Assembly: GCA_040221175.1 (NCBI GenBank)
Contig: JAVJVK010000004.1
Span: 604,268-668,267, forward strand
Direction: 5' to 3'
DNA length: 64,000 bases
From: Phycisphaerales bacterium
GTDB lineage: Bacteria; Planctomycetota; Phycisphaerae; Phycisphaerales; UBA1924
Shown here: positions 3,719-29,050 of the stretch, in pieces
Numbering within the stretch: the first letter of the stretch is position 1
Layout of the letters: the number at the start of each line of letters is the position of its first letter
Program-made: the position numbers and the translations under genes
The notes under the pieces: model-generated
Told to the model about the DNA's origin: nothing
The model's database searches: none
What the model saw: only the letters and a program-made list of their open reading frames with translations

Positions 3719-3779
3719 CCGCTTGGCCACGCCAGCGGGGCCACCGGTCCGAGAAGAAGGCCGCAGAAATGACTTTTTT

Positions 3780-3968
3780 CATGGTGTGAGCCGCTCGCGC
3801 CATGGAGTAAGCCGCTCGCACCATGAAAAAAGTCGCTCGCGCCATGGAGCAAGACGCTCACACCATGAAGAAAGTCGCTCACACCATGGAGCGAGACGCT
3901 CGCACCATGAAAAAAGTCGCTCGCGCCATGAAGTAAGACGCTCGCGCCATGAGAAAACCGGCTCGCGC
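3780..3968. repeat. 21-nt tandem repeat array 1 (nine units)
   Basis: Nine consecutive 21-nt units, each starting with CATG, fill the space between the convergent tadA and phosphatase genes. The units follow the pattern CATG, a purine-rich hexamer (often AAAAAA or GAGTAA), then G(T/A/C)CGCTCGC(G/A)C. They differ at several positions but never in length. The array accounts for most of the 331-nt gap; the rest holds the stem-loop at 3691-3718. It can be read as an open heptad-repeat ORF on either strand, but I treat it as non-coding because there is no start context and similar arrays of other sequence occur at 16.7 and 27.4 kb. Confidence 0.9.
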
Positions 3969-4006
3969 CGGGACGTGCCGGGGCGCGGGCTCCCCATGGG
4001 AGGGGC

Positions 4007-16376: not shown

Positions 16377-16486
16377 AGTACCCTGACGTCTTTTGCACCT
16401 ACGGGAAGGCCCCAAAAACCCTCACGCCTGCCGTACGGGTGCGATGGCTGCCAATTTGGCGGTCGAGGGGTATCAGCGAGCGACCG

Positions 16487-16550
16487 ACGCCCCCCTCCAA
16501 CCTCGGAAGATCTCGGCCACCTCCCCGGCCGGGGGCGGGGGAGGGAACGG
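16487..16550 (+). repeat. REP-like GC-rich element, right copy (inverted relative to the left copy)
   Basis: Reading on the plus strand: GCCCCCCTCCAACCTCGG, a short middle, then GGCCACCTCCCC and GGCCGGGGGCGGGG. It is clearly related to the element at 12566-12636 but points the other way, so the two copies bracket the four-gene island. It lies about 110-200 nt upstream of the predicted sigma-54 transcript start. Confidence 0.7.
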
Positions 16551-16670
16551 ATCGCCGCCGCAACACCGCCCGAGAACCGCGGCCCTTCCGCCCCGTCTTC
16601 TTCACCGCCGCCCATAACCCCCCGCAGCGCCCGGTCCGATAGAGAAACCGCCCTTGCGCCCCCTAGCAGA

Positions 16671-16880
16671 GTTTCGGGCGTGCAATCCGTCGCTCATGGC
16701 GTGCCGTCAGCCGCTCATGGCACGCCGTCAGCCGCTCGTGGCGTGCCGTCAGCGGCTCACGGCGTGCCGTCCATCGCTCATGGCGTGCCGTCGGCGGCTC
16801 ATGGCCTGCCGTCCGTGGCTCATGGCGCGCCGTCGGCGGCGGGTGGCGTGCCGTCCATGGCTCCGTGGACGCCGTCGGCC
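16671..16880. repeat. 21-nt tandem repeat array 2 (about ten units)
   Basis: Eight clear 21-nt units run from 16692 to 16859, with one divergent unit on each side. The pattern is GCTCATGGCGTGCCGTC followed by a variable four bases (AGCC, GGCG, CATC, CGTG). Unit length never varies although bases do. It lies in the 935-nt gene-free stretch between the defence operon and nrdR. Its reverse-complement relationship to array 1 is partial: both share CATGG(T/C)G(C/T)G. Long ORFs across it are artefacts of the 7-codon period. Confidence 0.88.
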
Positions 16881-17258
16881 GCGCCCGGCGTGACCCGCGT
16901 CGCTGTTGTCGGGGTGGCCGGGGCGGGGTTCTCGGGCGTTGTGCTCTGGCGGAGCAAGGTGGTTCGGGTGCGTCGTGCTCTGGCGGTGCGCCGAGGTTCG
17001 ACGCCCCGGCGGAGCGCCCCTGAGGACAGGGCCGCTGCGCCGGGGCTCGCTCAAGCGTGGTGTTCTTAGGGCGCTCGCGGACTCGCGTGCGGGCTGCGCC
17101 CGGGCGGCGGGGCCGCCTCGACGGGGACATGCGCGGAGGACCGCGGATGCCCCGTCGCCCTTACAAGATCTAGTGGCCCTTCGGCCGCCGCCCTACCATG
17201 GAGGGAGCCCCCCCCGGCCCCAGGGCTCACCACGCCCCACCACGCCCCCTCACAACAG
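16881..17258. other. Gene-free GC-rich stretch before nrdR
   Basis: No convincing gene is visible. GTGCTCTGGCGG occurs twice, 34 nt apart (16941 and 16975). A CTACCAT motif near 17196 could be a -10 element for nrdR, which would give a leader of about 50 nt; within it GAGCCC and GGGCTC can pair around a C-rich loop. No Shine-Dalgarno sequence is seen before nrdR. Confidence 0.5.
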
Positions 17259-26309: not shown

Positions 26310-26642
26310 ATGAGCCAGGTACCACCGACCCAGCCGGGGCCGATCGCCCCGGACCCCACCACCGTCCGCGTCGCGATCCTCGTCTCGGCGATCTTCAACA
26401 TCCTGACGGCCGTGAGCTGGGCGTTCACGTGCATCGGCATCGTGCTCAGCGTGCCGCTGGTGGTGCTGGCGGTGTTCGAAATCATGCACTTCAACGCCCT
26501 GGCGCAGCCGCCCTACGGCCCCAAGCGGGCGCGCACGCAATTGCTGGGCATCCTGGAGGTCTGCACGATCCTGGCGGGCAACCTGCCGTCGCTGATCTGC
26601 GGCGTGATCGTGCTGGCGATGCTCGACAAGGTGCGTGATTAG
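26310..26642 (+). CDS. Small two- to three-helix membrane protein
   Basis: This 110-aa protein has a Pro-rich N-terminus (QVPPTQPGPIAPDP) and hydrophobic helices at about 20-42 (AILVSAIFNILTAVSWAFTC), 44-62 and 80-104. This layout recalls small DUF4190-like proteins, but there is no clear match. GGGGGA precedes ATG 26310. Its stop codon overlaps the stop of the convergent PEP-CTERM-like gene by 4 nt. Confidence 0.7.
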   Translation: MSQVPPTQPGPIAPDPTTVRVAILVSAIFNILTAVSWAFTCIGIVLSVPLVVLAVFEIMHFNALAQPPYGPKRARTQLLGILEVCTILAGNLPSLICGVIVLAMLDKVRD

Positions 26643-27238
26643 TCGCGCGATGAGCCGCGGGATGAATGGCGACGCCGGGCGCACACCAGAAGCCCGCCGA
26701 GCACGGCAACCGACGCTGGCGTGGGGATGACGCGAATAGTTGCGTTGCCCTCGGCAAGCAGGTCGAGGCGGCTCTCGCCGAAGACCGCTTCGCGGGTGGG
26801 ATACACCTCGAAGCGGCTGGTGTCGGTTGACAGCAGCACGTCGAAGGGCGCGGCGACGTCCATCGGGGCGGTGTAGGTGACGGTCCAGAAGTCGATGGGG
26901 TTGGTGGGTGGTGGCAAGCCGGGAACGGGAAAGTTGAGCTGGCCCGCGAGGATGCCATCGATGCCGGTGCCGCTGGGCGCGCCGGGGGTTGTGCCCGGGC
27001 CGGTGAGGGGGGCAACGAGCTCCCAATCGCTGAGGCCGCGTTCCCCCTCGGAACTCACCAGATCGGTCAAGACGAGCGCGAAAGCCCAGTCGTGCGGGGC
27101 GTAGGCGGCAGAAAGCGTCACCGATGTGCTCTGGCCGGGCAGCAGCGTGTCGTCCTCGATGTCGAAGAGGATGGCGTATTGGGCCAGGGTTTGGGTGGCG
27201 GCGGCCAACAGCAGGACGCAGGCGGTCACGGGGCGCAT
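26639..27238 (-). CDS. Secreted PEP-CTERM-like surface protein
   Basis: This 199-aa exported protein has a signal peptide (ACVLLLAAATQTLAQ) and a beta-sandwich-like body (YAILFDIEDDTLLPGQSTSVTLSA). The end is a variant PEP-CTERM sorting tag: IPTPASVAVLGGLLVCARRR, i.e. a PTPAS motif, a hydrophobic helix and a basic cluster. In other bacteria exosortase recognises such tags and the protein goes to the cell surface or matrix; no exosortase is in the window. GAGGAGG lies just before ATG 27238 and TATATT about 20 nt upstream. Confidence 0.78.
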   Translation of the reverse strand: MRPVTACVLLLAAATQTLAQYAILFDIEDDTLLPGQSTSVTLSAAYAPHDWAFALVLTDLVSSEGERGLSDWELVAPLTGPGTTPGAPSGTGIDGILAGQLNFPVPGLPPPTNPIDFWTVTYTAPMDVAAPFDVLLSTDTSRFEVYPTREAVFGESRLDLLAEGNATIRVIPTPASVAVLGGLLVCARRRHSSRGSSRD

Positions 27239-27396
27239 GGGGTCCTCCTCGCGCGTTCAATATACCGGAAGCGGCGGGGCCACGCAAGGGCACTTGTGCG
27301 CGTCGCGTCGCGGACCACGGCGAGAGAGGGTGTTGTTCGGGAGACGCGGCCTGGCGGGCCGTGAGAGCCGATGGGCACCGCGGAGGAATGATTTCT

Positions 27397-27522
27397 CCGC
27401 CCGGCCAGATGATCTGACCGCCCGGTCAGGTCTTCTCGCCGCCCGGTCGGATGAACTGGCCGCCCGGTCAGGTCTTCTCACTGCCCGGTCAGGTGATCTG
27501 GCCGCCCGACGAGACCATGCAA
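27397..27522. repeat. 21-nt tandem repeat array 3 (five full units plus a partial)
   Basis: Five 21-nt units run from 27397 to 27501 and a sixth decays by 27522; a further decayed unit may precede (27376-27396). The pattern is CCGCCCGG(C/T)C(A/G)G followed by (A/G)T and a variable NNNCT tail. The array fills the 303-nt gap between ffh and the PEP-CTERM-like gene, both on the minus strand. Its sequence differs from arrays 1 and 2, but the unit length is the same. Confidence 0.88.
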
Positions 27523-27541
27523 CCGCCCCGGCGGCGTCGCG

Positions 27542-29050
27542 TTACTTCCGCTTCTTGCGCTGCTTGAAGCCCTTGGGCTTGCCGCCCTTGGTGCTCTTGC
27601 GGCGGGCGATCGAGGGCATCATGGAGGCGGCCGCGGCGGCGCTGTCTCCCCCGGCCGCCCCCTGGGCCATGTGGGTCATGGTGCTCATCTTGCTGCGGGC
27701 GCTCATGTCGCCCATGCCGCGGGTGAGCTGGTTGATGGTGTTGAACTGCTTGACCAGCCGGCCGACGGTCTGCTGGTCGACGCCCGCGCCCCTGGCGATG
27801 CGGCGCTTGCGCGAGTTGTCGATGAGCTTGGGCTTCTTGCGCTCGGCCGCGGTCATCGACTGGATCTGGGCCTCGACGCGATCGAGTTCCTTGTCGTCGA
27901 TGCTGACGTCCTTGAGCGCCGAGCCCACGCCGGGCAGCATGCCCAGGACCTGCTTCATGGGCCCGAGCTTGCGGATGGTCTTGAGCTGCTTCAAGAAGTC
28001 GTCCATGCCCAGCTCGCCGCGCATCATCTTGTTCTGCAGCTTCTCGGCCTCTTCCTCGGTGACCTCCTGCTGGGCTTTTTCAACCAGGCTCACCACGTCG
28101 CCCATGCCCAGGATGCGCCCGGCGAAGCGCTCGGGGTGGAAGGGCTCCAGCGCGTCGAGCTTCTCGCCCGTGCCCACGAAGCGGACGGGGGCGCCGGTGA
28201 CCTCTCGAACGCTCAGCGCCGCGCCGCCGCGCGTGTCGCTGTCGAACTTGGTGAGGATGACCCCGTCGATGCCGAGCTGCTCGTGGAAGGCCTTCGCTGA
28301 CCTCACCGCGTCCTGGCCGGTCATGCTGTCGACCACCAGGAAGATGTAGTGCGGGTTGCACGCGGCCTTGACCTTCTTGAGCTCGCCCATCAGGTCGTCG
28401 TTGACGTGCAGGCGGCCGGCGGTGTCGAGGATGGCCACGTCGCTGCCGTTGGCGCGGGCCTGCTTGAGCCCGCGCTTGCAGACGTCGACGGCCACGCCCA
28501 CGCGCTCGCCGTACGCGCCGATCTGGTCCAGCTCGCCGTGGAACTTGACCGGCGCGCTGCCGGGAAAGCCGCCGGCCTGCTGGGCGACGGTCTCGAGCTG
28601 CTCGACGGCGGCGGGGCGCTGCAGGTCGGCGGCGACGAGGGTGCTGGAGAGGTCCTTCTTACGGAGCCAGGCGGCGATCTTGCCGCAGGTGGTCGTCTTG
28701 CCGCTGCCCTGCAGGCCGCACATCATGATGACGGTGGGGCCGGGAGAGACGGTGTGGATGCCCGGGTCGCTGGCCGTGCCCGGCTCGCCGCCCAGGAGCA
28801 CGACCAGCCGGTCGTGGACGATCTTGATCATCTCTTCGCCCGGCTTGACGCTCTCGGTGACCTTCTTGCCCAGGGCTTCCTGGACGACCTGGTCGCAGAA
28901 CTTTTCGACGACCTCGAGGGCGACGTCGGCCTCGAGGAGGCTCTCGCGGACCTGGGCCATGGCCTCGCGCACGTTCTTCTCGGAGATGGCGCCCTGGCCT
29001 GAGAGGTTTCGCAGGGCGGACTGGAAGCCTTCGGTGAGTCGTTCGAGCAT
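27542..29050 (-). CDS. ffh: Signal recognition particle protein Ffh (SRP54)
   Basis: Ffh binds signal peptides and 4.5S RNA and delivers ribosomes to FtsY. The 502-aa protein has the N domain (1-95), then the G domain with P-loop GLQGSGKTTT (112-121), DLQRPAAVEQL (142-152; DTYRPAA in most bacteria), DTAGR and TKFDSDTRGG. The M domain follows with GDVVSLVEKAQQEV and RRIARGAGVDQQTVGRLVKQF. The C-terminal tail is Ala-rich then strongly basic (KGFKQRKKRK). A TACAAT -10 candidate lies at 29104-29109 on the minus strand, about 54 nt upstream of the start. Confidence 0.95.
   Translation of the reverse strand: MLERLTEGFQSALRNLSGQGAISEKNVREAMAQVRESLLEADVALEVVEKFCDQVVQEALGKKVTESVKPGEEMIKIVHDRLVVLLGGEPGTASDPGIHTVSPGPTVIMMCGLQGSGKTTTCGKIAAWLRKKDLSSTLVAADLQRPAAVEQLETVAQQAGGFPGSAPVKFHGELDQIGAYGERVGVAVDVCKRGLKQARANGSDVAILDTAGRLHVNDDLMGELKKVKAACNPHYIFLVVDSMTGQDAVRSAKAFHEQLGIDGVILTKFDSDTRGGAALSVREVTGAPVRFVGTGEKLDALEPFHPERFAGRILGMGDVVSLVEKAQQEVTEEEAEKLQNKMMRGELGMDDFLKQLKTIRKLGPMKQVLGMLPGVGSALKDVSIDDKELDRVEAQIQSMTAAERKKPKLIDNSRKRRIARGAGVDQQTVGRLVKQFNTINQLTRGMGDMSARSKMSTMTHMAQGAAGGDSAAAAASMMPSIARRKSTKGGKPKGFKQRKKRK

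Follow-up and report, generated by a model that had tools for sequence, protein, structure and literature searches.

CRISPR arrays have a conserved leader at one end, a partly palindromic repeat, homogeneous repeats near the leader and a frayed far end. Human minisatellites such as MS32 mutate in a polar fashion: the end beside a flanking cis element is homogeneous, and the array decays with distance from that end. Little satellite DNA is expected between the genes of bacteria. Prokaryotic satellites are tandem repeats scattered over a genome, and intergenic ones are reported for Leptospira in the portion of PMC6749651 that we draw on. The REP/BIME elements with RAYT (GTAG families) and the CGTC REP families are described, in the sections of PMC3733652 used here, as self-complementary intergenic repeats of about 20–40 bp, present in many copies and heterogeneous within families. 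According to the same sections, the CGTC families lack a transposase of their own, the PVC group includes GTAG families, and the GTAG family of Thauera was noticed through a tandem repeat database (PMC3733652). In the open-access papers covered on such tandem repeats and on Planctomycetes/Phycisphaerales, we found no description of the arrays reported here.

The window is the whole stretch of 64,000 nt that was analysed (G000:C4:604268-668267, in the 3.44 Mb genome G000; G001–G006 are of the same genus). The first-pass annotation had seen in it three arrays of one unit length, and TRF confirms a period of 21 nt for arrays 1 and 2 as well as for array 3, which lies 16 nt downstream of the ffh stop codon (Table 1). 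The period-21 match of array 3 runs over 27388-27508 (5.8 copies, 72% matches) and a 42-nt period over 27397-27508 (87% matches); reading the units by eye takes the array on to about 27525. The statement that the array fills the gap after ffh is half right. It lies inside the gap of 303 nt (27239-27541), takes up only about 138 nt of it, and leaves the remainder as the upstream region of the next gene. This small gene matched no Pfam or NCBIfam model, and we take its C-terminus to resemble PEP-CTERM sorting signals. Rfam covariance models gave no match at gathering score anywhere in the window.

Table 1. Arrays, neighbouring features and locus pairs with arrays in both members
Feature	Position	Strand	Description	Evidence
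Array 3	27388..27525	none	~6.5 units of 21 nt, 42-nt higher-order repeat, self-complementary unit CCGGTCAGATGATCTcaCCGC	TRF, dyad, fold
ffh, signal recognition particle protein	27542..29050	-	3' end borders array 3	TIGR00959 E 5.7e-158
Small secreted-protein-like gene	26639..27238	-	same strand as ffh; array 3 lies 149 nt upstream of the gene	
Array 1	3784..3969	none	21-nt units CGCTCGCGCCATGGAGAAAGA, between convergent genes	TRF; dyad p 0.026
Inverted unit at array 1 edge	3771..3791	-	reverse complement of GCTCACACCATGAAAAAAGTC	read in sequence
Array 2	16679..16872	none	21-nt units GGCGTGCCGTCAGCCGCTCAT	TRF; dyad p 0.03
Leader motif GCAAGGGCGGTTTCTCTATCGGAC at array 2 end	16634..16657	-	in 21-nt register with array 2; = G000:C4:620901-620924	
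Array-bearing locus pairs			L192 (G000)/L241 (G005); L190 (G000)/L234 (G004); L234 (G004)/L236 (G001)	
Array-bearing locus pairs			L238 (G003)/L244 (G005); L107 (G000)/L159 (G005); L106/L189 (G000)/L158 (G005)	

The period was followed in a sample of 664,000 readable bases of G000, window included (about one fifth of the genome; 667,627 bases with six short contigs that read as N). Our own codon-usage caller gave 530 genes (85% coding) and 223 intergenic segments of at least 130 nt, and gene contexts are therefore approximate. A segment was scored at a given lag when it held an 84-nt stretch with at least 60% match. Lag 21 was found in 17 of the 223 segments, lag 42 in 15 and lag 63 in 14; each other lag from 12 to 62 was found in none or one. 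Five rounds of mononucleotide shuffles of the same segments produced no lag-21 match, which, with the two TRF periods, establishes array 3 as real. Coding sequence showed no peak at lag 21 (4 of 528, compared with 7 at lag 12 and 2–4 at other multiples of 3). TRF returned 35 rows at 21 nt, 17 at 42 nt, 8 at 63 nt and 17 at 81 nt, with at most 7 at any other period. The rows at 81 nt (for example L007 3812, L009 14666, L010 13282 and L015 446) belong to another repeat; those inspected look like DFDGDGELTLFDFLTF by eye, which we take to be dockerin-like. After removal of the six N-reading contigs and of 12 regions dropped by eye (coding-like, GC-rich simple or unclear), 18 of the 36 regions listed in G000 were kept as curated arrays, which extrapolates to an estimated 90 or so genome-wide. 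The first-pass annotation had made its reading depend on a genome-wide preference of intergenic tandem repeats for 21 nt, and in the fifth of the genome that was sampled this preference is present.

The samples of other genomes were small (5–180 kb per genome). Within the genus, lag 21 was found in 2 of 12 segments of G001, 2 of 51 of G004 and 2 of 57 of G005, and in none of 29, 15 and 16 segments of G002, G003 and G006, respectively; G003 and G006 carry leader arrays (see below) outside the sampled segments. In other genera of the family there was one segment of 26 in G024 and one of 6 in G015, the latter a 7-nt microsatellite, and thirteen others sampled had none at lag 21. A search for ffh relatives gave 80 named loci, in which lag 21 occurred in 3 of 376 segments: one on a Planctomycetota contig (L045) and two in Ruminococcus, both longer than 10 kb, where our gene model fails, having been trained on G000. 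By ffh, the closest named relatives (at most 68% identity) are Phycisphaerae, mostly labelled Phycisphaerales. Single arrays of other periods were also seen, of 20 nt in L032 9629-9749 (Phycisphaerales) and of 19 nt in L047 11-112 (Planctomycetota). Two further dispersed intergenic repeats lie beside array 2, at 16484-16560 and 16979-17159 of the window; they match many places in G001 and G004, and some matches are also present in G003, G005 and G006.

The same end sequence was found on three arrays, which prompted a 16-nt search of the genome. With up to two mismatches, the pattern occurred at 22 places, compared with 14 for the reversed control. All seven matches with no or one mismatch adjoin a 21-nt array. 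Among the fifteen with two mismatches this is true of L196, and L209 has a GC-rich lag-21 stretch about 50 nt away. A 24-nt pattern, GCCAGGGCGGTTTCTCTATCGGAC, was then searched with up to three mismatches in 301 genomes of the order. It gave 17 matches in six genomes, all in the genus of G000 (six of its seven genomes searched), and none in the 294 others; the control gave no matches. All 17 leader copies adjoin a 21-nt array that is in register with the motif. Its lag-21 match is 0.49–0.81, and none of the other lags compared exceeds 0.41. The final unit before the leader motif often has the form GGAACTCTTCTCGGGGGCGCC, and inverted units precede it in several arrays. The leader does not always point to a gene start: it does so in 8 of 8 cases in G000 and in 5 of 8 callable cases (of 11) in other species. 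The genes after the leader in G000 (L188, L189, L191, L192, L193) often encode secreted repeat proteins, FG-GAP or propeller-like by eye, and on the opposite side housekeeping genes are common (SmpB and PheS by eye, NrdR by Pfam).

Array 3 has the 21-nt register and the dyad symmetry of the leader-bearing family. No convincing leader was found at array 3: its best local score, 12.5, equals the 95% level of the null and has the wrong orientation. Similarity of its unit to that of the leader family is not significant (p 0.25), and after alignment the best dyad centre of array 3 is 10 instead of 12. It follows that neither common descent of arrays 2 and 3 nor membership of array 3 in the leader-bearing family can be claimed. 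The suggestion that one mechanism makes the arrays is supported by the leader copies, which are in one common register in 17 of 17 cases, array 2 among them. A profile of the leader end finds only three of the 18 G000 sample arrays, so that 15 are leaderless. At 20 leaderless arrays the mean score for a diverged leader was 10.85, compared with 9.7 in random intergenic DNA (p 0.003), and the match was clear only at one array of G004.

Array 3 is a member of the class by period, placement and self-complementarity. In the dyad test, the 21 columns of an array were compared with column permutations that keep period and composition. The arrays had been picked from the period scan and curated by eye beforehand; in the other genomes, nine of 18 regions were kept. 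All array borders were set by eye. Array 3 scored 0.604, compared with 0.457 for permuted columns (p 0.0025). Eighteen of the 27 curated arrays reached p<0.05, 13 of the 18 from G000 among them, and nine missed it. The leader arrays number 19, with 17 from the 24-nt search plus L194 and L196 from the 16-nt search. Of these, 17 reached p<0.05 (exceptions L189 and L240), and the best dyad lies at one same centre out of 21 in 17 (exceptions L194 and L240). The mean dyad score at the common centre is 0.504, against 0.22–0.33 elsewhere.

Paired positions change together across the leader arrays. We used 17 unit consensus rows (18 arrays) and paired columns 1-4 with 8-11 and 12-15 with 18-21; since the arrays are partly related by descent, which inflates such counts, and also served for the choice of the pairs, the evidence is strong but not independent. 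The tested pairs are 82.4% standard, compared with 68.2% in shuffles (0 of 500). Changes on both sides occur in 7 of 8 pairs against a shuffled mean of 4.3 (4 of 500 reach 7), and double-change cells number 25 against 8.2 (0 of 500; at most 8 in slid controls). The covariation score is 0.490 versus 0.228 in shuffles (0 of 500). A last measure, the count of additional pair types, is not raised (13 versus 12.0 in shuffles, 183 of 500). In G001, whose ffh is 93.2% identical, the ffh gap is occupied at the same position by a longer array, with the unit CTCGTGAGTTCAACTCACCGC where array 3 has CCGGTCAGATGATCTcaCCGC, both written from the dyad centre. Bases of the dyad arms have changed together between the two, for example A-T to T-A, and are still complementary (by eye, from the consensus). 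Different sequence follows ffh in G005, G006 and G003, and G002 has a short gap.

We tentatively read array 3 as a member of a class of intergenic satellites, mostly limited to one genus of the Phycisphaerales and kept as a strand-indifferent spacer that forms hairpins. We give this reading somewhat less than an even chance, and its functional part is proposed from sequence comparison. What is conserved would be a rigid 21-nt register, equal to two helical turns, rather than sequence. Most arrays would also keep self-complementarity, each unit having two dyads centred 10.5 bp from one another. With such a geometry any unit could pair with any other, and the whole array could fold as one long interrupted hairpin. 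The arrays may act at the level of DNA, as a cruciform or a lagging-strand hairpin, or as RNA read from either side. Their role would be structural: a spacer or boundary that separates adjacent transcription units irrespective of strand. Tandem duplication and gene conversion may lengthen and homogenise the arrays, with most activity at the leader end in those that have a leader, and the far end would fray. We infer that pairing ability is under selection, that the arrays mark boundaries and that a copying mechanism of this kind exists. The turnover of sequence, the kept register and the compensatory arms suggest that something reads, or is driven by, structure and not sequence. Covariation without strand preference is most economically accounted for by pairing of DNA, or of RNA from either strand, that is maintained by selection or by symmetrising copying. 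Template switching at hairpins, a mutational symmetriser, could give the same covariation without function.

A neutral or selfish satellite is a serious rival, although on balance an unlikely one. Here a leader-bearing palindromic cassette would spread to further gaps, slippage, gene conversion and hairpin-templated correction would multiply, homogenise and symmetrise the units, and the 21-nt period would be inherited, not selected. Such spreading fits leader copies that occur at several places per genome and are confined to the genus. It also fits array 1, which is present in G000 and absent from G001, G004 and G005 with the gap intact (the flanks align there 34, 106 and 8 nt apart; in the remaining three members of the genus they do not adjoin each other). 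In G004, L155 18246-18306 has a leader-like match (E 0.0015) next to one or two decayed units, lacks a periodic array (lag-21 match 0.31) and looks like a dead copy, as a satellite might leave behind. Loci share unit types in one register, with an expected identity of 0.42 for loci of different genomes, compared with 0.28 once the register is destroyed. Homogeneity is polar: neighbouring units are 0.73 identical in the half nearer the leader and 0.58 in the other half (16 of 19 arrays, p 0.0008), a contrast due in part to fraying of the far end itself. Gene orientation shows no preference. Of 24 leaderless arrays, five are similar to the leader-family unit at p<0.05, and the combined p is 0.0014. 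One recognisable unit behind all arrays is not borne out by these five, and the other 19 are not significantly like that of the leader family, yet have a period of exactly 21. The 15 G000 arrays without the leader likewise keep this exact period. Arrays at the same locus in different species also speak against a satellite of this kind: six locus pairs (five loci) with at least one common flank have arrays in both members (Table 1). At the leader loci, orthology brings no clear gain in unit similarity (0.51, versus 0.42 for unrelated loci, p 0.08).

The strictness of the register weighs further against a neutral satellite. In the leader arrays, 220 of 223 units score best in the strict register, a result favoured by the collection of units in 21-nt steps, and 1,501 base differences separate 204 adjacent unit pairs. 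This supports the earlier proposal that the period itself matters, and in substance the first-pass reading is correct. Matches off the register beyond the array ends (above 99.5% of background) occur in 7 of 19 leader arrays and are mostly weak, with only L241 and L243 near unit scores. A neighbouring intergenic stretch of 110 nt differs between G000 and G001 by 16 substitutions and three gaps, one of them at a cut end, so that indels would be expected in the arrays if spacing were free.

A bolder extension of our preferred reading, which we consider less probable again, is a bacterial element of spacerless arrays, partly leader-anchored, that conserves a two-turn register and pairing but not sequence. 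It would be grown from the leader end by a putative machinery and would form structural domain boundaries, in effect satellite chromatin.

A one-strand RNA element is a quite unlikely explanation. The arrays would be hairpin clusters in 3' UTRs, acting as terminators or mRNA stabilisers, and array 3 would lie on the ffh transcript. The short distance from the ffh stop is what one would expect of such an element, and a terminator role is reported for hairpin clusters near stop codons in the part of PMC8355165 that we draw on. The arrays fold better than column-permuted arrays, on both strands (mean z -3.2 and -3.6 over 19 arrays). In addition, G004 (ffh 92.2% identical) has the same neighbour gene and, with no array, a plain palindrome in the ffh gap. 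However, the fold of array 3 is strong on the plus strand (z -4.5) and hardly better than shuffles on the minus strand, which is the ffh strand (z -1.2). The folded part of the G001 ffh array does well on both strands. MFE showed no strand difference over 19 arrays (p 0.86); among 1,680 cells of 18 arrays, 170 are G-T and 142 A-C. The placement of the arrays also disagrees with a 3' UTR element. Leaving aside one array at the edge of a stretch, we placed 17 arrays, which occupy 16 of the 154 gaps with 180 nt or more; 8 of them lie between divergent, 7 between co-directional and 2 between convergent genes. These numbers are proportional to intergenic bases (divergent excess p 0.46), so the arrays follow the make-up of intergenic DNA and serve no particular gene arrangement. 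A convergent-gene or intrinsic terminator was rejected, as two convergent cases of 17 are what is expected and show no preference for gene 3' ends. As a separate observation, the G004 gaps that correspond to those of array 3 (3' of ffh, L151) and array 1 (L223 2560-2700) hold one kind of plain palindrome, CGAGCCCCTCGCGCGAGCGAGGGG; a functional replacement of the arrays is possible.

Also very unlikely is a phased operator array, in which the dyads bind a putative dimeric, oligomerising protein, the 21-bp spacing keeps the sites on one face of the helix and the leader is a nucleation site. The strict register, the sequence-conserved leader, the match of 21 bp to two helical turns and the recurrence of dyad centres every 10.5 bp would suit it. 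The arms, however, differ greatly between arrays of one genome and covary, a pattern that a protein of fixed specificity does not explain.

Coding heptapeptide repeats (21 nt = 7 codons) are hardly credible: an open frame of 89 residues exists in L196, but period-3 variability is found in 0 of 19 leader arrays, and the gene caller, applied to 23 arrays, places no more than two weak ORFs there (scores 12 and 14), plus a single gene edge. The absence of a period-3 pattern and of a strand difference argues against a peptide and against a one-strand RNA alike. The L196 frame (array at 1534-1803) has a heptad-like repeat, TRQEEFL, and is probably a by-product of the palindromic unit.

Of the sampled intergenic gaps of 180 nt or more, roughly a tenth contain an array, with the same exact period throughout. 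The leader provides a 24-nt handle on the making, maintenance and use of the arrays. Many naturally diverged arrays are at hand for work on covariation.

Compared with the REP families, which in the sections of PMC3733652 used here are defined by a consensus with an end tag and are predominantly head-to-head dimers, the present arrays are head-to-tail, in a fixed 21-nt register, with locus-specific units and a leader in a subset. Some unit types contain CGTC, for example GACGCGTCA. The Y1 transposase (PF01797) is absent from G000, G001, G002, G005 and G006 and above cut-off in G003 (one) and G004 (two). REPs driven by RAYT were rejected, as G000 has no such transposase of the IS200/IS605 type. 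With CRISPR arrays they share a leader at one end, a partly palindromic repeat of similar length, leader-proximal homogeneity and fraying at the far end. They differ in that the units vary and abut at 21 nt with no spacers, and in the lack of Cas1 (PF01867), which is absent from G000-G005, with one copy in G006; CRISPR adaptation was rejected on these grounds for G000. Minisatellites of the MS32 type likewise have one sharp homogeneous end and decay away from it, but the arrays described here are bacterial, are built of palindromic 21-nt units and form a dispersed class. Prokaryotic satellites are grouped by similar repeat sequence in the portion of PMC6749651 that we draw on; in the present class the sequence is mostly not common to the arrays, and what they have in common is the period and the self-complementarity.
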